The notes under the pieces are model-generated. The model was not told where the DNA came from, did not search any database, and saw nothing but the letters and a program-made list of their open reading frames with translations. 42,376 nt of DNA from assembly GCA_021108435.1 (NCBI GenBank), contig JAIOQY010000005.1, positions 1 to 42,376 of the forward strand, given 5' to 3'. Each line of letters opens with the position of its first letter. Position 1 is the stretch's first letter. A program made the position numbers and the translations under genes. This document shows, piece after piece, positions 2,111 to 42,122 of this stretch. This DNA comes from Candidatus Aegiribacteria sp. (GTDB lineage: Bacteria > Fermentibacterota > Fermentibacteria > Fermentibacterales > JCC-6).

Positions 2111-4237
2111 TTATAGTAATATCATTTTCTTTATAATATCTCGCTCTTCTGTTTTCAGTAAGTAGAAATACATTCCCGAAGGAACAGGTTCACTGCTCCC
2201 ATCTGTACCATTCCAAATCACTCTATGAAGACCGACTCTTAAACTCTGATTAACAAGCGTAATAGTTTTTTGACCTGCTATATTGTAAATTGAAAGCTCT
2301 ACTGCACCATCTACAGATATGGAAAAAGAGATTGCTGTTGTTGTATTAAAAGGATTTGGATAATTCGATAACAGATTGACTATGCCTGTACTATTACTGA
2401 TTTCTGGATTTACAGTTGTACCAGCATCATACTCGAAAGCTCCTATATCAGGTGCTGAACCACTATATGGAAAACTGATACCCTGACCTGCATCCCAAAC
2501 CATTGAGTTAGCTAAAGTGATTCTATTATTATCATAATCTACATCAGTTATCCTTACAGTTTCAACTTCCCCTTCTAATTGAATCAAATCTCCGACTGTT
2601 ATACCGTAACCATCACAGAAATAACCGGCATCTCCGACTGTTATGACAGAACCAGAACCCGATGAAACAGTATGCGAAAGAAATGTTCCTGCATCTATAA
2701 GCTGTGAAGTGCTTTCTAAGTTGAAATCCTCAGTAGTCGGATCTATGAAAAGAGGATCTATTATGATGTTATCGTTAATATTTAGAGGGAAATTTGTCTC
2801 CCACCATGAAAGAGGATAGTTTCCTATGAGAATATCATAGATGTATACTTCTCGATCATTAAAGAAATCATTATAACGAAAAGCATTATTTCTAAGTTCA
2901 GCTAATTCGGAATAGATCATATATAGTTTTGTACTATCATCTTCCGTGTTATAGATTATGTTATTTGTAAACGTATTATCGTCAACTACGGATCCATAAG
3001 ATTCGGTAATAGACCATTCTTCAGGATATAGAACCTGCTGGGACTGACCAAGGTAAATGCTGTTGTTATTGTAAAATGTATTACTGAAAAACTTATTGTT
3101 CCCGCCAGTTCTACCGTCTGTTAAATACACACCGCCTGACTGACCGTTATGGTAGCATACATTGTTATAAAAACTATTATCATTACCATCTACCTGTAAG
3201 CCACACCCCGTACATCGATATGCAAAATTGTTTCTCCATACCTCACGATAGGTATCCCAGTTTGAACACATCGCACTACTGCCGGAATCGTGAAATCTAT
3301 TATTCTGGATAATGTTATGATGAGGCTGTGTTCCATTTGTATATCCTCTGGTGTTGATAGGGTTATGCCCTGTAAGGGATATATCATTCCCTTCGATCAG
3401 ATTATGATGACCGGTCAGGAATATTCCATCTCCCTCATCCCAGTACCATGAGCCTGAATGGAATATAGTATTGTCCTGAATCTGGTTGTGGTGTGTTTCT
3501 TCTCCAAGGCTTATACCGCCATAAGTATATTGAATGTTTAAATTCTTAAAAATGCAATTACTACTACTGTCACTCAATATTCCGATAACTATCCATTTCA
3601 TATGAATTCCGTCTATTACTATGTAATCCTTGTCGAAGTGAGCGCCCTTTCCTGTGGATGCTCTCATTGTGTGATTGTTTGGATCGTCTCCTGTGGAAGT
3701 CCAGACATAGAATCGCTGGTTTACCTCATCATGATAGAACTTGCCGGGTTCATCAAGGTCAGATAACGAGAAAACAGGCCATAGTCCACAATAGAATTCA
3801 GCTTCCTCGAAAGTATCTTCCCATAGCGGAATGGTATAACCAGCATAATGAGCCCAATAGATAGAACCAGTATGATTGACCCAGTCGGTAATCAATAGAG
3901 AACGATCAATAACCGGTGTCTCGTTCGGATATGCCTTGTATGTAATGTAATCCCACTGAGTCCCTGAACTTATCGGGTCTATGCTTTCGTTATATGATCC
4001 CTCTCTTATAATCGCAGTATCACCAGGTTCCAATTCAGTATTTGCTTTAGAAATGGTCTGCCATGGTTCAGAGAATGTTCCTGGATTGTTATCATCTCCA
4101 TATGGAGCAACATAATATGTCTCCGCATAAATTGTATTGAAACTGTTCAGTATTCCTAGAATAAATGATGTTATAATGAACTTCCTGATAGAATTGAAGT
4201 AATCATACTCATCTTTACCACTCCTGAAGAATCCCAA
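2111..4237 (-). CDS. Secreted right-handed beta-helix protein with type IX-like sorting domain
   Basis: A large exported protein. After a hydrophobic segment (IITSFILGILNSF) comes ETYYVAPYGDDNNPG, the usual opening of DUF1565/parallel beta-helix proteins. Many Asn-rich rungs follow (NNAFRYN, NNIIYN, IQNNRF), typical of pectate-lyase-like or carbohydrate-binding helices. The last ~85 residues (NYPNPFN..., LSIYNIAGQK, SGMYFYLLK) form a FlgD/type-A-like C-terminal sorting domain, implying outer-membrane export. I see no catalytic signature that names a substrate. The reading frame stays open to a TTG at 4279 without a ribosome site; the TTG at 4237 has AGGAG 5 nt upstream and is preferred. An out-of-frame ATG with a nearby purine-rich site also lies just before the signal segment, so a frameshift at the start is possible. 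Confidence 0.75.
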   Translation of the reverse strand: MGFFRSGKDEYDYFNSIRKFIITSFILGILNSFNTIYAETYYVAPYGDDNNPGTFSEPWQTISKANTELEPGDTAIIREGSYNESIDPISSGTQWDYITYKAYPNETPVIDRSLLITDWVNHTGSIYWAHYAGYTIPLWEDTFEEAEFYCGLWPVFSLSDLDEPGKFYHDEVNQRFYVWTSTGDDPNNHTMRASTGKGAHFDKDYIVIDGIHMKWIVIGILSDSSSNCIFKNLNIQYTYGGISLGEETHHNQIQDNTIFHSGSWYWDEGDGIFLTGHHNLIEGNDISLTGHNPINTRGYTNGTQPHHNIIQNNRFHDSGSSAMCSNWDTYREVWRNNFAYRCTGCGLQVDGNDNSFYNNVCYHNGQSGGVYLTDGRTGGNNKFFSNTFYNNNSIYLGQSQQVLYPEEWSITESYGSVVDDNTFTNNIIYNTEDDSTKLYMIYSELAELRNNAFRYNDFFNDREVYIYDILIGNYPLSWWETNFPLNINDNIIIDPLFIDPTTEDFNLESTSQLIDAGTFLSHTVSSGSGSVITVGDAGYFCDGYGITVGDLIQLEGEVETVRITDVDYDNNRITLANSMVWDAGQGISFPYSGSAPDIGAFEYDAGTTVNPEISNSTGIVNLLSNYPNPFNTTTAISFSISVDGAVELSIYNIAGQKTITLVNQSLRVGLHRVIWNGTDGSSEPVPSGMYFYLLKTEERDIIKKMILL

Positions 4238-4362
4238 AATGTCTCCTGCCCAGCCAGTGTTCTTATCTTGAAATGACAATACAGTAACCTGTACAGTTCC
4301 GTCAAACCCTAACCAGTAAATCTCAGGAATATCATCTTTCCGCGTAGAACATGCATCTGATA

Positions 4363-22864: not shown

Positions 22865-24844
22865 TCAGTCGGTGCTTCGGAGAATCACTATTTCAACTCG
22901 TCTATTCAGCTCCCGTCCCGCCTCGGTATCATTCGCGGCAGCGGGTCGTCTTTCACCAAACCATGTAGGTTCGATTTCTATATCAACGCCTTCGAGCTTC
23001 GAAGAAAGATAATCGGCAACATTGATTGCCCGCTCTTTCGATAAGCCGTCGTTATGCGAGAATGTACCATCGCTGTCGGCATGTCCTTCTACTGACACAA
23101 AAACACCCGGATTAGCTCTAAGTGTTTGAATGATCTGATCAAGCGAGGGAATCTGATCGTTTCTAATCTGTTCGATATTATAATCGAAATAGATAGTTGA
23201 TACAGGTAATCCCTGTCGTTCAGTCGCGACAATTACGAACTGGAACAGGTCAATCGGATCAGTTTCATAATAACAGTACTCGAGGTCTTCATTGATTTGC
23301 CTGACCTCAACATCAAGCGGGACTCCTCCCTGAACTCTCGAAAGACCAATGCTCAGAGGATCAATGCGATTCTCATCCAGCCAGAGTTTATTCACGCGAA
23401 AACTCAGAGAAGCTTCGAGAATGTCTACACTGTCAACTTCTCCGTATACTATTCTCGGTTCAAGCATTACCAGTTCTGCCGGGCGGCAGGTAATAATACA
23501 ATCCCTGAAACGATCCAGATTCGTCTCGTAGTAATAGTAGGCTTCATCCTCATCGAATAATGCTGCTGGAACTCTTTCAAGCGATCCGTCCTCAAGAAGC
23601 TGATATAAGCGAAGAAGTCTCAGCTCCAGTCCATGCTGTTCGATCCAGAATCTTGGTACCCTGAAAAGGGCTGTCAGATCACGGATATGCGATTGTTCAA
23701 GTGAGCTGCTGATGGGGAAATAGCTGTAGAGATACTGTTCCGAATCAAGCTGAACAGGACTGTTAAGAGGAATCTCATCATATTGTGCCACCAATAATGA
23801 ATCCTTTTGAATATCTCTGATAGCCCACAGATCAAACTCGTACATGTCAGTGTTGGGGAACCATGTTCTCTTATCAACCATAGGCGGCAGAGGTACTCTT
23901 GAGCGATTCTCGTCCCAGGTATCACCACCGAGCCTGAACGTCAAACCGATTCTGTGTCTGCCCCATGTGTTGTAAAGCTGGTTCAGCGGTACACTTAAGG
24001 CGTAATCCAGTTCTATTGGAATCGATCCTTCCGTTCTCACTGAAAATCCTGCTGAGATTTCGTGCGCAAGACCTGAAGCTTTGAAAGAATATCCGGTTCT
24101 GACTCCCCATGAGGAAGCCGAACCTATCCATTTCTCGAAACCGGCTGAGACATTGAGATCGAGTTTTCCTCCGATTCTTTCAAGGCCGTAATCAATCTGC
24201 AGAACTGGAGTAACAAAACGGGGATAGAACGCAGCACCAAGAGAAAACTGCATACCTTGTTTGTCAGTGGTTTCAAGACCAAGATCAGGCTGAATGATAT
24301 TCCTGACAACACCAGCTACAGTAGCTGTTCTCCCCAATTCAGCCTGAAAACCGGCATTAAGACCTATTCCCTGCCCTTTTTGTCCGTATATGGCAAACAG
24401 GGGGTCATAAGATGTGAATTCATTATCCGCAAACTGCCTGAAAAGATATCTTCCGGTTAATCCGATTGATACAGGAAATATCCCTGGTCTGAACGCAAAA
24501 GACAGATTTGCCTCCCCTTCAGAGTAGAGATCGGCAGATGTGAGATAGTCAGCTCCCGCTGAAAAAGCAACAAATTTCGACAGAGGATGCAGGTAACTCA
24601 GAGCTGCGTAATGAAGCGAACCGTTATCCATATTCGGATACAGGTTCGAATACTCGGTACCGATAAGAATTCTTCCCGCTCGAAGGATTGAAGCGGGATT
24701 CCACCAGGCTCCCCAGGCATCATCGCCAAGTGAGATGAAAGCTCCCGAAAGTCCCATTGCTCTGGTTCCCGGTGTCTGATCCGAGGAAGCTGTAGACACG
24801 AACAGAAGGGGCAGAAGAAGCAGAAGTATTATCTTGCAACGCAT
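22865..24844 (-). CDS. Fusion of PorV/UPF0164-like barrel, two PGF-pre-PGF-like domains and OmpA
   Basis: A 659-aa outer-membrane protein. Residues 1-20 are a signal peptide (MRCKIILLLLLPLLF). Residues ~22-310 resemble the PorV/PorQ-like UPF0164 barrel, opening with GTRAMGLSGAFISLGDDAWGAWWNPAS. Residues ~387-452 and ~475-541 each match the PGF-pre-PGF pattern (LFRVPRFWIEQ...LLRLYQLLEDG...YYYYET and SFRVNKLWLDENRIDPLSIGL...YCYYET), best known from archaeal surface proteins. Residues ~549-657 are an OmpA peptidoglycan-binding domain (TIYFDYN, VEGHADSDG, LNRRVEIVI). The chosen ATG at 24844 overlaps the protease gene by 16 nt. In type IX systems PorV-type proteins shuttle cargo, and the adjacent protease carries a type B-like sorting domain. 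Confidence 0.75.
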   Translation of the reverse strand: MRCKIILLLLLPLLFVSTASSDQTPGTRAMGLSGAFISLGDDAWGAWWNPASILRAGRILIGTEYSNLYPNMDNGSLHYAALSYLHPLSKFVAFSAGADYLTSADLYSEGEANLSFAFRPGIFPVSIGLTGRYLFRQFADNEFTSYDPLFAIYGQKGQGIGLNAGFQAELGRTATVAGVVRNIIQPDLGLETTDKQGMQFSLGAAFYPRFVTPVLQIDYGLERIGGKLDLNVSAGFEKWIGSASSWGVRTGYSFKASGLAHEISAGFSVRTEGSIPIELDYALSVPLNQLYNTWGRHRIGLTFRLGGDTWDENRSRVPLPPMVDKRTWFPNTDMYEFDLWAIRDIQKDSLLVAQYDEIPLNSPVQLDSEQYLYSYFPISSSLEQSHIRDLTALFRVPRFWIEQHGLELRLLRLYQLLEDGSLERVPAALFDEDEAYYYYETNLDRFRDCIITCRPAELVMLEPRIVYGEVDSVDILEASLSFRVNKLWLDENRIDPLSIGLSRVQGGVPLDVEVRQINEDLEYCYYETDPIDLFQFVIVATERQGLPVSTIYFDYNIEQIRNDQIPSLDQIIQTLRANPGVFVSVEGHADSDGTFSHNDGLSKERAINVADYLSSKLEGVDIEIEPTWFGERRPAAANDTEAGRELNRRVEIVILRSTD

Positions 24845-27800
24845 ACTACACCACTCATCCTTGTGTTTCCAGTCCACGCCATATAAACGTAGATCCCACC
24901 GGAAACAATTCCACCTCCATCATCACGTCCGTCCCATGATGGTTCTTCACCTTCAATTGTTACAATTGGGATACCTTCCAGACTGTAGATCGTCACAGAT
25001 AACTGATCTCCATCGGCCCCTGGCCAGATGAAATTCGCAACGTCGTTGATTCCATCTCCGTTGGGAGTGAAGGGATTTGGAATTACGTTCATTCCCTGTC
25101 CGTAGTCCCGCAACATGGGGAAGTCGTGTATGGTCATTTCATCTTCATAGATGGAAACAGTATCCGTTACTGTTATATATCCGGATTTTTCTGCGCGAAT
25201 GGGAACAGGTCCAACTGGAACATTCTCAAAGCTATACAAGCCTTCCGAATCAGAAAACTGCTCGAGTCCCATCTCAACCACGCTTACAGATACATCCCGA
25301 AGTCTCTGACCAGTATGAACATCCCAGACTTCACCGGAAAGAGAGCCGCTTGGACCCTGTGGCGTCGCGCTGGCCATATTACTGTAATCACTTTCTCCGT
25401 ATGGATTCTCATAGAGCGTTGTCGCCCAGTAGTAATAGGTAACACCATTACTGACGAGGGAATCAACGTATGAAGTATCATTGGCGGACAGGCTTACGAT
25501 TGGATCAGGATCCGGTCCGAGTGGGCTCAGACTTCGGTATATCTGATAACCAAATAAGCCTTTAGAACCGGTTCCGGAACTTTCCGCGGACGGAGCACTC
25601 CAGTTCAGAGGGATGAATCCATTATTGCCGCTTTCAGCAGTAAGATACTCAGGTGGAGCAAGGATACCTTCAATGGAAAAAGGACCGTAAACCGATCTGT
25701 TATTTGACTCAGAAGATTCCTCAATCTGGTCTTCCGCGTCAATAACAGCAATCATGTATCGTATACCCATATCAAAATACGAGAATGTAACAGGCGCACT
25801 GTAAGATTGAGTCTCACCTCCCTGAAGAGGTGGAACCATAAATGAAATCAATGGATTTGAAGTACTGTCAGGATCCTCTTCAAGATAGAGAACCAGTTCG
25901 CATCCTCCTGCAGGTCCCTGTCCCTGATTAGTGACAACAACCGAGAACATAACCGTTTGACCAACGAAGAACGGAGGTGAGAGGTCCGGGCTGGGAGATG
26001 ATACAGTGAGATCAGGATACGCGAGAACAACCTGGAATATCGATGAGTCGGGCTGCAATCCGAGATTTGCCGCTGCAACCCGTGCAAGCAGATCATATGT
26101 TCCGGGTTGATCCGGAGTCTCTATCGTGAATGTATCCACACTCACAGCGTTTCTGTAAACAAGGTTACCCATATATCGCGGAACTGATACTTCTCCGCTG
26201 AAGCCAGATGGAGCTTCAATACTGCCCCATGTTCCGACCGCGATGTATCCTCCGTCATTTTTCACACTGAGAGGAAGTCTCAGTTCAGCTCCGGGGGCTG
26301 CGTATATGGTTGTATCCACAGGTGACAGAACTCTTACATCCGGGGTTCTGGAATAAGTGTACACCACAAGTGAATAATCTTCCTCTTCAAATGGATTTCC
26401 AGGATCCGACCAGCTTTCAGCAACTATTCTTGCTCTCCAGGCACCGGATTGTGGATTTTCAATACATATTTTCTCCAGTGGACTCTCGCCTGTTACACCT
26501 GCCGGAAGTGTGTAGTTATAAGTGACTTCGTCAGGTGATATCAGTGAGAAATCAAGGTCATTACCTATGGAAGCTCCTGGAACATCGCTGTATGCCATTG
26601 CACTGGATAGCGAAAGGGTAGTTGATGGAATGTAGAATGTCCATTCCCTGTACAATTGACCTTCAATATATGTTTCGTAAACCCAGAGAACCCGATCGAC
26701 TTCCTCCGAGAAATAAACACCGGGAAGATGGAAAGCATCAAGAAGTCCATATCCGTATCCTGTGGTCGCGTATCCGCTGAGAGGAGAACCGGTGTTACCG
26801 GCAAGAGGAATGGAGCTTGCTGCGAGAAGAGCAGCAATATCCTCGGGATGTACAAGATCCCCATATTTCTCAAAACAAAGCGCAATCGCTCCTGATACGT
26901 GCGCAGCGGCCATACTTGTACCAGCTCTTCGCGTATAGGATGATACACCGGGCCATCTGTTCTCCGGATCATCCAGCCACTGACCATTATACATCGCGTT
27001 TGTAGATACGACTCCGTCCAACATTGTGGAACCGGAAAACTCGCCACCCGGGGCAAGTATATCAGGCTTGAGCCGCTGATCTCCCTGTGTTGGTCCCTGG
27101 CTGCTGTAAGCGGCGAGGTAACAGTTGCCGTCCTCGTCAGGTATGTAGGTGACCGCTCCTACTGTAATGCAATTCTTCGCATTGCCGGGTGATGTAATTG
27201 TTCCCGATCCGCCCTGATTTCCGGCTGAGAACACAAGCACCATATCCCTGTCATTGACCCATGTATCTACTATTTCACAGAATTCATCATATCCTGAAGA
27301 AGTGAATCCCCAGGAATTATTGATTATTTCACATCCTGCCGTCTGGAATTGACTGAAGAAACCGTCAAGCTGTGAGGGAGTCATTCCGGATGGGCGCTCG
27401 AGTACAAAAAGAGAACCGTTGTAAGCGGCACCTCTTCCATTGAACTCGCATCCCAGAGATACCTGTCCGCGAGATGAAATAACGCCGCAGACAGCTGTTC
27501 CGTGTCCATCCTGATCAGGAGGACCGGAAATAACCGCTGGAGAAAGGTCAGGGTGTTCGCTCCAGACTCCGGTATCAAGTACACCTACTATGGTTCCCTC
27601 ACCCTGATAGTATTCCCATACGTTAGGACAACCGATAAGACGCCTGCTGTCATCAGCTCTGAATTGCGCGCTTTCCGGATTAGATCGAATTTCCCATGAG
27701 ACTTCAACTACTCCGGGAAACTCGCAGAGGTTCTTAAAATCGGTTGAAGCACCCGGAACACGAGCCAGATCCTGACGGATCCATTCTCCTCCTGCGGGTA

Positions 27801-28314
27801 GTCTTTCTCCAAGGATTCTCAGGAGGAAGTACCCCGACCAGTTGGACGGTTCTTGATCATTGCTGTAATGAGCAGTATTCCAGGGTTTTATTGATCGAAT
27901 AAATTCAGACGACCGCAACAGATCAATATCCGGTTCACCGGTCACAATAGCAGCAAATATATCGTTTTCGGGAGACCAGCCTGCAGGCCAGAAACCGCTT
28001 CGATCAAGAATCGACAGATTCGCCGGTGTGAGCGGCTGCCATACCCTGATCTCGACAATTGAAAAAAGATTAAGCTGTGATAAAACTGGTGCACCCTCAA
28101 GAACTCCTGAACCTGATAACAGCTGTTCATAACCGGAATCATACAGAAGCAATTCCCGCTGTCTTTTATCAGTATCCAGCTCTGAAAGATATTGGAGTAT
28201 TCCAGCCGGTGAAGCACCCTGTTGAGGCGCACTGCCAAAAAACGCCAATAACGTCATTAAAACAACAATCGGATGAATGACTTCGTCTCCCTTCACACCC
28301 CTCACCGTAGGCAT
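24829..28314 (-). CDS. Secreted subtilisin-like (S8) protease with CARDB, FnIII, CarboxypepD-like and type B-like sorting domains
   Basis: A 1161-aa exported protease. The triad is complete: Asp247 (GVLDTG), His271 (DGHGTAVCG) and Ser467 (GTSMAAAHVSG), with the oxyanion Asn366 (FSAGNQGG). Residues ~30-220 look like an I9-type prodomain. After the catalytic domain come beta-rich domains, a CARDB-like repeat (DLTVSSPSPDLSPPFFVGQ), an FnIII-like segment (LNWSAPSAESSG) and a CarboxypepD_reg-like unit (VWDVHTGQRLRDVSVSV). The end (PNPFTPNGDGINDV...WDGRDDGG...GGIYVY) is a FlgD/CHU_C type B-like sorting signal. The ATG at 28314 is kept; a GTG at 28296 is an alternative. It overlaps the barrel/OmpA gene by 16 nt. 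Confidence 0.88.
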   Translation of the reverse strand: MPTVRGVKGDEVIHPIVVLMTLLAFFGSAPQQGASPAGILQYLSELDTDKRQRELLLYDSGYEQLLSGSGVLEGAPVLSQLNLFSIVEIRVWQPLTPANLSILDRSGFWPAGWSPENDIFAAIVTGEPDIDLLRSSEFIRSIKPWNTAHYSNDQEPSNWSGYFLLRILGERLPAGGEWIRQDLARVPGASTDFKNLCEFPGVVEVSWEIRSNPESAQFRADDSRRLIGCPNVWEYYQGEGTIVGVLDTGVWSEHPDLSPAVISGPPDQDGHGTAVCGVISSRGQVSLGCEFNGRGAAYNGSLFVLERPSGMTPSQLDGFFSQFQTAGCEIINNSWGFTSSGYDEFCEIVDTWVNDRDMVLVFSAGNQGGSGTITSPGNAKNCITVGAVTYIPDEDGNCYLAAYSSQGPTQGDQRLKPDILAPGGEFSGSTMLDGVVSTNAMYNGQWLDDPENRWPGVSSYTRRAGTSMAAAHVSGAIALCFEKYGDLVHPEDIAALLAASSIPLAGNTGSPLSGYATTGYGYGLLDAFHLPGVYFSEEVDRVLWVYETYIEGQLYREWTFYIPSTTLSLSSAMAYSDVPGASIGNDLDFSLISPDEVTYNYTLPAGVTGESPLEKICIENPQSGAWRARIVAESWSDPGNPFEEEDYSLVVYTYSRTPDVRVLSPVDTTIYAAPGAELRLPLSVKNDGGYIAVGTWGSIEAPSGFSGEVSVPRYMGNLVYRNAVSVDTFTIETPDQPGTYDLLARVAAANLGLQPDSSIFQVVLAYPDLTVSSPSPDLSPPFFVGQTVMFSVVVTNQGQGPAGGCELVLYLEEDPDSTSNPLISFMVPPLQGGETQSYSAPVTFSYFDMGIRYMIAVIDAEDQIEESSESNNRSVYGPFSIEGILAPPEYLTAESGNNGFIPLNWSAPSAESSGTGSKGLFGYQIYRSLSPLGPDPDPIVSLSANDTSYVDSLVSNGVTYYYWATTLYENPYGESDYSNMASATPQGPSGSLSGEVWDVHTGQRLRDVSVSVVEMGLEQFSDSEGLYSFENVPVGPVPIRAEKSGYITVTDTVSIYEDEMTIHDFPMLRDYGQGMNVIPNPFTPNGDGINDVANFIWPGADGDQLSVTIYSLEGIPIVTIEGEEPSWDGRDDGGGIVSGGIYVYMAWTGNTRMSGVVCVAR

Positions 28315-38466: not shown

Positions 38467-39774
38467 TCATTCATCTGCTGGTAAAAGACCAAGCCTTCCC
38501 AGAGTATTATCCTCATTTCGAAGGTGATACTCAAGGGCACATCGCTCCTCGATCTCATTACCGGACAAAATCTTCTTGAACTCCTTATCCTGTCTTACCA
38601 TATCGATAAATCCTATACCCTGTTCCATAGCCTCCATGGCAACACGCTGAACCATCTTATAGGCGCTTTCTCTTGAAAAACCTTTATCAATCAGAGCGAG
38701 CAGAATTGTCTGAGAGTGGAATCTGTCCCCGGCCTTTTCAATATTGCTCCTGACGGCATCTGGAAACACCCTCAGATTTGATGTAAGCTTCACTGCCCTG
38801 GAAAGCGCATATAGAGCTATCCCACAGGAATCCGGAAAGATGAAGCGTTCAGCGGATGAATGGCTTATATCTCTTTCATGCCATAGAACAGTGTTCTCAA
38901 GGGATGGAATCAGATAGCCCCTGAGCAGGCGTGCAAGCCCGCAGAGTCTCTCACTGATAATTGGATTCCGTTTATGGGGCATGGCACTGGAACCTTTCTG
39001 TCCTTTCCCGAAGGACTCCTCAACTTCACCGACTTCGGTTCGCTGCAGATGCCGTATTTCCGTTCCGAATCTCTCAAGGAGACTTCCTATGGAGGCAAGC
39101 GCATATACAAAATCTGCGTGCCTGTCTCTTGCAACAACCTGGGTCGAAACAGTTTCAATCCCGATTCCCAGTCTTCTGCAGACGAATTCCTCCACGGATG
39201 GGTCCAGATGTGCGTAAGTTCCTACTGCTCCGGACAATTTTCCCACACATGCTGATTCAAGACCAGTTATTAATCGGTCCTTACACCTCAGATATTCGCT
39301 GTAGTACCCGGCAAACTTCAAGCCCATCGTTGTCGGTTCCGCATGCATTCCGTGACTTCTGCCTATACAGAGAATCCCCCTGGTTCTGTTGACCAGACCG
39401 GCCATAGCACTGCCAAAACTGTCAAGCTCATCCATAATCATCTTCCCTGCATCCTTCAGCTGGGTTGCAAGGCATGTATCGAGAATGTCGCTGGAAGTCA
39501 TACCGTAATGAATATGTCTTGCTTCTGAACCAAGACTCTCGGATACACTTGTAAGGAAAGCGATTACATCATGTCTGACAACTTCTTCGATTTCCTCGAT
39601 TCTTTTTACATTGAAGGAGGCGTTATCTCTGATATTCTTCAGATCTGAAGCTGAAACAAAACCGGCTTCCGCCCTTGCCTCCACAGCAAGTATCTCTATT
39701 CTCAACCATCTTGCATATCTGGATTCAGCAGTCCATATCTCCTCCATCTCGGGGATTAAATATCTGTCAATCAT
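38467..39774 (-). CDS. purB: Adenylosuccinate lyase
   Basis: A 435-aa homotetrameric lyase acting twice in purine synthesis (SAICAR to AICAR, adenylosuccinate to AMP). The family marks are EVVRHDVIAFL, the TSSDILDTCLA segment, SHGMHAEPTT with the general acid/base His, and the signature loop GSSAMPHKRNPI. Its length fits the bacterial short type. ATG 39774 has a GGAGGAT site. It is two genes upstream of the purL-purQ-PurS-like unit. Confidence 0.95.
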   Translation of the reverse strand: MIDRYLIPEMEEIWTAESRYARWLRIEILAVEARAEAGFVSASDLKNIRDNASFNVKRIEEIEEVVRHDVIAFLTSVSESLGSEARHIHYGMTSSDILDTCLATQLKDAGKMIMDELDSFGSAMAGLVNRTRGILCIGRSHGMHAEPTTMGLKFAGYYSEYLRCKDRLITGLESACVGKLSGAVGTYAHLDPSVEEFVCRRLGIGIETVSTQVVARDRHADFVYALASIGSLLERFGTEIRHLQRTEVGEVEESFGKGQKGSSAMPHKRNPIISERLCGLARLLRGYLIPSLENTVLWHERDISHSSAERFIFPDSCGIALYALSRAVKLTSNLRVFPDAVRSNIEKAGDRFHSQTILLALIDKGFSRESAYKMVQRVAMEAMEQGIGFIDMVRQDKEFKKILSGNEIEERCALEYHLRNEDNTLGRLGLLPADE

Positions 39775-39825: not shown

Positions 39826-40167
39826 TCAATGCGGAAGTTCCGCCCCGAAAGTCAATGGCCCATATATCCATGCAAAAAGAGACAGGTTCGGAACATACAC
39901 CCGGAACCAGTCATCAAGTCCCCCTGTAATCTGAAGAGTATCACCACTTTCAACCTGTCCAAGAGTAGCATATTCAGTTCCCGGCCCTGCCCTGAGATTC
40001 ACAATACTGCCGGATACAATAAGCTGCTGCCATTCCGGAATACTGCTGCCGCCCGTTTCCTGATCGTGCTGGGATACATCTGTTTTTGAGCACGATAGAA
40101 TTGTCAGAATCACCAACATCAATGAAATGAAGAAACATGTTTTACCTGAATCACATATTCTTCTCAT
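39826..40167 (-). CDS. SH3-domain lipoprotein
   Basis: A 113-aa lipoprotein with a signal peptide and lipobox (LTILSC, Cys26). The mature part is one bacterial SH3 (SH3_3) domain: VNLRAGPGTEYATLGQVESGDTLQITG then DDWFRVYV and WIYGPL. Such domains often bind peptidoglycan or other cell-wall ligands. ATG 40167 overlaps the IspH-UbiA-like gene by 4 nt (ATGA), so expression is coupled. Its link to isoprenoid synthesis is unclear. Confidence 0.75.
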   Translation of the reverse strand: MRRICDSGKTCFFISLMLVILTILSCSKTDVSQHDQETGGSSIPEWQQLIVSGSIVNLRAGPGTEYATLGQVESGDTLQITGGLDDWFRVYVPNLSLFAWIYGPLTFGAELPH

Positions 40168-41891
40168 AATACCTCCCCGATCCAGTACACAAGTATTGGA
40201 GCGAATCCCGCGATAAACAGACTCCCGTCTGCAATAATCCTTTTAGAAAACTCCGATGGAAAAGGGCTTCTTCTGAGATAGAAATACCCGACCGCCAGAG
40301 TAATTAGTCCGCCCGCGAAAGCTGAAGCATGAACAGGAAGATACCTGATAACAATACCGGCTGCGGGCAGAACAGTCGCCAGAATGAAACAGCACCAGAA
40401 TAGAATGACGCTCTTTTCTCTTCCTGCATGAATTGGAATGGTATCTATCCCCATAAGAGCATCACCCTGCATATCCACTAAATCAGCCAGCAGGCACCTG
40501 CCCAGAAATAGAAAGAACAGTGTTCCTGCCCAAAGAACAGAACCGGGATTAATTGTGGAACCGGCTGAAATGAATCCTGGAAGTAATGCAAGCAGGAACG
40601 ACCAGGCTCCGGCAAACATAAGATCCCTGGAACCGGGAACAGCCCTCAACCCTCGGAACGGGTAGGTTTTTCTTATAAGCGGAATAGAATAGAAAAGGAA
40701 TGCAACAAGCATTAATCCCAGAACACATGGCCAGACAGGATTCAAAACGAGAGAAATCCCCAGTGATCCGGCAAATGCGGTTAAAGCGCAGATAGTAAGA
40801 AATATTCGATGCTTTCTGATAAACTCCTGTCTCCGCAGACCGGATGGGCGAGAATATCCGGATTCCAGAACGGAAGTCACCGTATGGACCGCGAAAAGAA
40901 AAAGAGAAGAGGCAATCACCGGTTCAAACCATCCGGTCCCACCAAGGATGATCGAACTCGCAATTCCCGTAGCAAATGTAATGGGAAGAATATGGAAATT
41001 CCCAAAAACCATTACCTGAAGCAGCTCCCTGAATTTTCCGGATCTCAGTCTGTTCCCCTGAATCTCAAGAAGCTGTTCCCGGACTTTTCGAATGCTCCAG
41101 CTGGGAGTAGATGCACCAGCTGTTAGAAGGATGTCATCGTATCGTGCCAGCAGTTCTGCATCCAGCTCTTCATGTGTTTCTACGATGTACGATGGAAGTC
41201 CCTCCTCGCGGGCAATTTCAGCAAGTCTGGCAGTATTCGCGCTGTTTCTTCCCCCAACAACAACCACGCAGTCAACTCCGCCGCACAGATCTCTGAGTTC
41301 ATTCTGTCTCATGCTTGTTGATTCGCAAATCGTAAAAGCATGTTCAAGATTGGAAAATCTGTTCAGAAGAGCTTTCTTTGTTTCTTCGTATGTTTGAGTG
41401 TTCTGTGTGGTCTGGGAAAGCAGGAAAGGCTTTGATAGTTCAGGCAGGTTTTCCACATCAATCGGACCGGATATAACCCTGGCTGAAGATCCCCCGTAAG
41501 AAAGAATCGATATTACTTCCTGATGAGCAGGGTCTCCGAGGATAAGAACATCATATCCCTCCTCGCTTTTCTTTCTGGCAATCATCAGAGCTCTGCTGAC
41601 TCGTGGACATGTCAGATCTTTCAAATGCAGGGGGAGGCTGGAAACCTTTTTTTGTTCATCAACTGTGATTCCGTGAGTTCTCAGGAAAAGTGTACCTTTC
41701 CGCATTTCCTCAGGATCGCTGCAAATACCTACGCCCTTATCCTCAAGAGCCTCCAGTACCTGCGGATTATGCACAAGTTCACCGTATACCGCATATGGTT
41801 TATTGCCCTTCTTGAGTTCAGCAAGGACCAGATCAACTGCTCTGCGGACTCCCCAGCAGAAACCGGCAGTCCGTGCTGTAATTACGCTCAA
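40164..41891 (-). CDS. ispH: IspH (HMBPP reductase) fused to a UbiA-like membrane domain
   Basis: A 575-aa fusion. Residues 1-~280 are IspH, the last MEP-pathway enzyme, making IPP and DMAPP. All three [4Fe-4S] cysteines are present: Cys12 (AGFCWGVRRA), Cys95 (DLTCPRV) and Cys189 (ICESTSMRQ), with His41 and the HQEV pair (His123, Glu125). Residues ~295-575 are a multi-span membrane domain resembling UbiA prenyltransferases: the second Asp motif is intact (Asp470, Asp473, Asp477 in LLADLVDMQGDALMGIDTIPI), but the first Asp-rich motif is replaced by VLESGYSRPSG, with no Asp. Prenyl transfer is therefore uncertain. A TTG start (41891) has GGGAGG upstream. The SH3 lipoprotein overlaps its 3' end. 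The gene symbol refers to the N-terminal half. Confidence 0.85.
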   Translation of the reverse strand: MSVITARTAGFCWGVRRAVDLVLAELKKGNKPYAVYGELVHNPQVLEALEDKGVGICSDPEEMRKGTLFLRTHGITVDEQKKVSSLPLHLKDLTCPRVSRALMIARKKSEEGYDVLILGDPAHQEVISILSYGGSSARVISGPIDVENLPELSKPFLLSQTTQNTQTYEETKKALLNRFSNLEHAFTICESTSMRQNELRDLCGGVDCVVVVGGRNSANTARLAEIAREEGLPSYIVETHEELDAELLARYDDILLTAGASTPSWSIRKVREQLLEIQGNRLRSGKFRELLQVMVFGNFHILPITFATGIASSIILGGTGWFEPVIASSLFLFAVHTVTSVLESGYSRPSGLRRQEFIRKHRIFLTICALTAFAGSLGISLVLNPVWPCVLGLMLVAFLFYSIPLIRKTYPFRGLRAVPGSRDLMFAGAWSFLLALLPGFISAGSTINPGSVLWAGTLFFLFLGRCLLADLVDMQGDALMGIDTIPIHAGREKSVILFWCCFILATVLPAAGIVIRYLPVHASAFAGGLITLAVGYFYLRRSPFPSEFSKRIIADGSLFIAGFAPILVYWIGEVL

Positions 41892-42122
41892 GAAGATCCT
41901 CCCTCAATGAAAAGCATCAGTTAACATAACAGAGAAAGAAAGTACGGGAAAATCAATTCGGCCTCTGCGGTCAAGCGGAGTAAATTACTCGTTGATCCTT
42001 ATTCAATCCAATTTTCAACTTTCAAATTCTCAACTCTTTTGAATTCCTTTTCATTCCGCAGAAGATGTCAAGGTATATATCAAGGAATATATATTTTTGT
42101 TTATCGGAAAGTGCGGGAAGTT
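41892..42122. other. Intergenic region upstream of ispH
   Basis: An AT-rich 231-bp gap between two minus-strand genes. It should hold the ispH promoter and the terminator of the partial gene at the right edge, but I find no convincing -35/-10 pair. A weak near-tandem ATATAT-rich repeat (AAGGTATATATC, AAGGAATATATAT) lies near 42070-42096. Confidence 0.4.

Follow-up and report, generated by a model that had tools for sequence, protein, structure and literature searches.

An IspH-UbiA fusion with an eroded first aspartate motif in Candidatus Aegiribacteria and related bacteria

Locus, reading frame and neighbouring genes

The window, i.e. the whole stretch of DNA analysed here, comprises 42,376 nucleotides of a Candidatus Aegiribacteria sp. 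contig (JAIOQY010000005.1, assembly GCA_021108435.1). A single open frame on its minus strand, the strand having been left unstated in the first-pass annotation, encodes an IspH domain followed by a UbiA-superfamily domain (Table 1). The order of the fusion gene, usually an SH3-domain lipoprotein gene, and purB is kept across the uncultured phylum Fermentibacteria, the SH3 gene being present in most loci. No functional clue emerged from the gene neighbourhood, which offers purB/uvrB in Fermentibacteria and aroA in G044. Elsewhere in the window, a secreted beta-helix protein and a subtilase (2111-4279 and 24829-28314, minus strand) carry C-terminal sorting-type domains of type IX secretion (Por_Secre_tail, CHU_C).

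Table 1. Features of the IspH-UbiA locus (window coordinates; residues refer to the 575-aa protein)
Feature	Position	Strand	Basis
IspH-UbiA fusion gene, 575 aa, TTG start	40164..41891	-	Pfam; equal-length orthologues
Shine-Dalgarno-like GGAGGA, 5 nt upstream of the TTG	41897..41902	-	Read directly in the sequence
IspH (LytB) domain, residues 1-278	41058..41891	-	Pfam LYTB 4e-76; 3dnf match; alignment of 12 orthologues
UbiA-superfamily membrane domain (supported), about residues 285-575	40167..41039	-	Pfam, hhalign, AlphaFold, Foldseek
Eroded first Asp motif, residues 339-351 (TSVLESGYSRPSG)	40839..40877	-	Alignments, hhalign
Y401, aligned with AfUbiA catalytic Y139	40689..40691	-	Alignment; role from PMC4106721
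R422-D423, conserved basic-acidic pair	40623..40628	-	Alignment of fusions
Second Asp motif, D470-P486 (DLVDMQGDALMGIDTIP)	40434..40484	-	Conserved throughout Fermentibacteria
SH3-domain lipoprotein-like gene, with a 4-bp overlap (ATGA) at the fusion stop codon	39826..40167	-	Pfam SH3_3 5.9e-9; synteny
purB (adenylosuccinate lyase), located downstream of the fusion gene throughout the phylum	38467..39774	-	Pfam Lyase_1 6e-46, ADSL_C; synteny

The first-pass annotation had described one frame joining a complete IspH to a UbiA-like domain with no stop in between, and had named a frameshift or an assembly join as a danger to this description. The description was confirmed by the 575-aa frame, by Pfam and by independent assemblies. 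Among 41 related genomes of the same genus, family or order (G001-G041), 40 contain the fusion, at 45-95% identity; the sole exception, G036, is an 80%-complete genome from another family of the order, in which no match whatsoever was obtained. Three of these copies are cut or split at contig ends (G008, G010 and G014), and five matches were counted with one stop codon, at least partly in gaps or ends as aligned by the tool. Thirteen further loci with the fusion come from named public Candidatus Fermentibacteria/Aegiribacteria MAGs of several projects. No stop or frameshift separates the two halves, and the same full-length frame recurs in independently assembled MAGs from other projects. Because relatives show the same fusion in independent MAGs and the synteny is kept across the phylum, a chimeric join or a frameshift in the window is excluded for practical purposes.

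The N-terminal half is a complete IspH

The Pfam family LYTB covers residues 3-274, the Aquifex IspH structure 3dnf was matched at E 7e-43, and the NCBIfam model ispH_lytB scored above its cut-off, the remainder of the protein giving weak prenyltransferase matches. All three [4Fe-4S] cysteines are present, as had been claimed (C12, C95 and C189), and are invariant among 12 aligned orthologues. The same invariance was found for H41, H123, E125, T161, S217, N219 and S261, whose roles we take to be those of their counterparts in E. coli IspH. With IspH enzymes such as that of Aquifex, the protein has in common the whole domain, each of the cluster cysteines and the active-site residues; it differs from them in its additional C-terminal membrane domain.

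The genome that contains the window has one IspH, one IspG and one short-chain prenyl synthase. Since IspH is single copy, IspG is present and the cluster and active-site residues are conserved, the fused protein is expected to act as the functional IspH of the cell, serving the MEP pathway. A weak extra "UbiA" match in this genome, on contig C46, is not a paralogue; it corresponds to the short-chain prenyl diphosphate synthase.

The C-terminal half is assigned to the UbiA superfamily

The Pfam UbiA family was matched at residues 368-539 with an E-value of 6e-6 and 26 bits, under the gathering score of 34.2. Profile-profile alignment (hhalign) with stand-alone UbiA proteins gave a probability of 98.6 and an E-value of 1e-15; in this alignment NDxxDxxxD is paired with the eroded segment, and the second motif with D470-P486. 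An AlphaFold model of this half (pLDDT 77, pTM 0.77) was submitted to Foldseek, and the PDB matches were led by UbiA-superfamily enzymes with a probability of 1.00 and E-values of only 0.01-0.1, so that the result counts as support, not proof. Among these matches was Aeropyrum pernix UbiA (4od4; TM 0.58/0.61), and the UbiA-family structures retrieved (7bpu, 6m31, 4od4, 4tq4 and 8djk, TM up to 0.61) were intermixed with soluble prenyl synthases. Soluble prenyl synthases and UbiA enzymes have an all-helical fold in common. A profile search of the PDB with the UbiA half returned no sequence match even at E 10, so that sequence alone ties this half too weakly to the solved UbiA structures. The full-length AlphaFold model was poor (pLDDT 67), leaving the arrangement of the two domains unreadable.

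Taken together, hhalign and the structural model support membership of the C-terminal half in the UbiA superfamily, in agreement with the UbiA-like domain first proposed for it, and hhalign together with Foldseek rules out an unrelated membrane family. With AfUbiA, ApUbiA, MenA and UBIAD1 the domain shares the fold, motif 2, the catalytic Tyr and the basic residues, whereas its motif 1 lacks NDxxDxxxD and it is fused to IspH.

Distribution, origin and relation to published fusions

A sample of 386 genomes was searched with a profile built from the fused UbiA halves, at a cut-off of E <= 1e-15. Matches were obtained in 34 genomes, and for 28 of the 386, spread over 23 family codes, IspH was confirmed in the same frame (G281, with a profile match in a 579-aa frame, is not counted among the 28); as the sample includes clusters of relatives, 28/386 is not a rate for Bacteria. 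In two small phyla, all sampled genomes gave a strong match (3/3 and 7/7). The search for other proteins of this architecture, suggested by the first-pass annotation, was thus positive both among close relatives and in the wider sample.

In a tree that included 12 stand-alone UbiAs, the fused UbiA halves fell into a single clade (95/87). In the IspH tree, the halves taken from fusions came together with support of 100/98, although a long-branched unfused sequence (L079, from G080) lay among them; their strict monophyly was not rejected (AU p 0.10). This unfused IspH may have shed its UbiA half, or its position may be an artefact of the tree. The identities of the IspH and UbiA halves correlate at 0.93 (703 pairs). 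Given the single clade of fused UbiA halves, the fusion probably arose once, and the simplest reading is one such event with joint inheritance of both halves thereafter.

Our first-pass annotation knew of no fusion of IspH to a UbiA-like domain, a statement that does not stand, as Rao et al. described in 2015 a set of 47 IspH-UbiA "Rosetta stone" proteins (PT_UbiA_5), all said to come from sulfate reducers, mainly Desulfobacterales, and to contain two DXXXD repeats (PMC4746011). These authors could not express an active IspH-UbiA and left its function undetermined (PMC4746011), and in the searchable literature since 2015 we found no assignment of a function to IspH-UbiA; a literature search brought up just one other paper that uses the term. 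The published proteins and the one in the window agree in having an N-terminal IspH and a C-terminal UbiA-like domain in one frame, and a length about twice that of the usual IspH. They differ in that the window protein has only the second of the two DXXXD repeats, its motif 1 being eroded, and in that its host gave no DsrA match whereas theirs were reported as sulfate reducers; both traits are described properties of the published set, not a definition of the class. Direct homology to the published Desulfobacterales sequences, compared here by description, is likely. The IspH-RPS1 fusions of Clostridia and Fusobacteria (PMC4746011) also have IspH as the N-terminal partner, but join it to ribosomal protein S1 repeats rather than to a membrane domain.

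DsrA exceeded the cut-off in only 5 of the 32 fusion genomes tested, and no match was found in the window's own genome or in 7 other Fermentibacteria. Given these counts (5/32, and none of 8 Fermentibacteria), the published link with sulfate reducers is too narrow and does not hold in this sample; fusions from DsrA-bearing genomes fall within the same clade as the others. The architecture itself is already known, and what is added here is the variant with an eroded motif and a host range wider than published.

Motif erosion and conservation of the pocket

In the window protein, the motif 1 region reads T339-S-V-L-E343-S-G-Y-S347-R-P-S-G, with T339, E343 and S347 aligned to N68, D72 and D76 of AfUbiA; neither NDxxDxxxD nor an NxxxD metal site is found in TSVLESGYS. 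Across 41 diverse fusions aligned, the canonical NDxxDxxxD does not occur once, and the NxxxD/E form is present in part of them: the position of AfUbiA N68 is Asn in 26 and that of D72 is Glu in 20, Asp in 14 and lost in 7 (an acid in 34/41), the alignment of this segment being less certain for distant lineages. Within Fermentibacteria, the metal-binding Asn position holds Asn, Thr, His or Ser, and the Asp has become Glu, except for Gly in one lineage (L046/L047); E343 is kept in nearly all Fermentibacteria examined. The earlier description of the first motif as replaced by VLESGYSRPSG was right as to its degeneracy, while "replaced" is slightly too strong, the conserved Glu being a conservative D-to-E change seen in 20 of the 41 fusions.

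The second motif, claimed to be intact, indeed is (D470-LV-D473-MQG-D477-ALMGIDTIP), and the window protein has both the DxxxD formed by D473 and D477 and the Tyr at 401. In the 41 fusions, motif 2 is D-D-D in 25 and D477 is present in all; Tyr occupies the 401 position in 32, and in every Fermentibacteria sequence aligned; Lys or Arg is found at 422 in 40 and R465 in 39. Fermentibacteria thus combine an eroded motif 1 with an intact motif 2 and Tyr, and in two other lineages (f6 and f22) the motif 1 Asp is retained, the first motif 2 acid is altered and the Tyr is gone. Purifying selection acts on the UbiA half, for which the dN/dS ratio was 0.11-0.20, versus 0.05-0.15 for the IspH half.

These positions have been probed in characterized enzymes. 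In AfUbiA, N68A and D72A abolish GPP binding, with loss of function for the MenA equivalents, D198A and D202A weaken binding 45- and 21-fold, and Y139 is the near-universal catalytic Tyr of UbiA enzymes (PMC4106721). In UBIAD1, N102S, which affects the same Asn as N68, lowers both GGPP affinity and activity (PMC9314443).

Possible roles of the fused UbiA domain

On the reading that we tentatively favour, and which may well be correct, the UbiA half would be a membrane module that retains a diphosphate-binding pocket and is impaired in canonical prenyl transfer. The sole IspH would convert HMBPP to IPP and DMAPP while permanently tethered to the cytoplasmic membrane by its C-terminal UbiA-fold domain, a domain that would stem from apparently one ancient fusion common to many bacterial lineages. 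A pocket of the Mg-diphosphate type would be kept (D470/D473/D477, Y401, R422 and R465), the strong first metal site having presumably been lost in Fermentibacteria, where N and D became T/N and E. The domain would then most likely bind an isoprenoid diphosphate or a lipid, canonical transfer being weak or absent, and would place IspH at the membrane, the site at which its products are consumed. The analysis itself shows the fusion, the assignment of the fold, the single copy of IspH, the common ancestry, the purifying selection and the residue patterns; that the domain inserts into the membrane, binds a ligand and no longer transfers prenyl groups, and that tethering is of benefit, is inferred. 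The N68/D72 mutants and UBIAD1 N102S lead us to predict weak or no canonical transfer from T339 and E343, and from the conservation of the pocket we would expect it still to bind some ligand; the earlier suggestion that the domain may bind lipid without catalysing transfer is a reasonable inference. As erosion differs among fusion lineages while the fusion is kept, transfer seems not to be the shared reason for the fusion.

That same independent erosion, of motif 1 in Fermentibacteria and of motif 2 or Tyr in other lineages, would also be expected if the UbiA half were an inert anchor that merely holds IspH at the membrane with a vestigial pocket. We regard this as improbable, since an anchor would have no need of the motif 2 and pocket positions found among the invariant residues, and since few residues of the UbiA half are as well conserved as those of the pocket (D477 in 41/41, K/R422 in 40/41 and R465 in 39/41 fusions).

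The conserved motif 2, Tyr and basic residues, the acidic residue that most fusions have at the metal position of motif 1 and the purifying selection on the UbiA half are likewise consistent with a bifunctional enzyme, as already proposed in print by Rao et al. 2015 (PMC4746011), in which an active UbiA prenyltransferase with an NxxxE-type motif 1 would be fed locally by IspH with IPP/DMAPP or a derived prenyl diphosphate. E343, being conservative and nearly always conserved in Fermentibacteria, makes a working metal site possible, and motif 2 and Tyr could just as well be so strictly conserved because the enzyme is active. Yet we consider such an enzyme rather unlikely, as no fusion carries the canonical motif, the Asn has become Thr, His or Ser in part of Fermentibacteria and the Glu has become Gly in L046/L047, and related fusions are without the Tyr or the motif 2 acids. 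IspH makes C5 units, and most known UbiA enzymes use longer chains; direct channelling from one half to the other is for this reason not obvious.

Retention of pocket residues while the catalytic motif erodes would also fit an in-built isoprenoid-diphosphate sensor, kept across lineages as the transferase motifs decayed, which would bind a prenyl diphosphate in the membrane and exert feedback on the attached IspH. The precedent is UBIAD1, a UbiA-family protein that senses GGPP and regulates an isoprenoid-supply enzyme, HMG-CoA reductase (PMC9314443). The argument being purely one of analogy, we give the sensor only a small chance; if true, bacteria would have, within one polypeptide chain, an equivalent of the control that UBIAD1 exerts on HMG-CoA reductase.

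As a drug target, IspH is regarded as essential and soluble. In the fusion, which is probably of single origin and spans at least 23 family codes, it would be a membrane protein, and the combination of an eroding catalytic motif with a conserved pocket makes it testable whether a UbiA fold can serve isoprenoid synthesis without prenyl transfer.

Other UbiA-like proteins

By score, the closest unfused relatives found for the fused UbiA half are two stand-alone UbiA-like proteins, 292 and 314 aa long (L153 in G145 and L154 in G283), in which motif 1 is likewise without the canonical Asp and motif 2 is kept. A 595-aa frame in G105 (L125; contig C117, 9510-10265) has a UbiA-like match of 76 bits without IspH. 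The other UbiA protein of Fermentibacteria (L087-L100 and L114; about 31450-32380 on contig C179 of G000) resembles, on our reading of its sequence, decaprenyl-phosphate phosphoribose synthase. In several genomes its gene adjoins ispE, so that here too a UbiA gene is paired with a gene of the MEP pathway.
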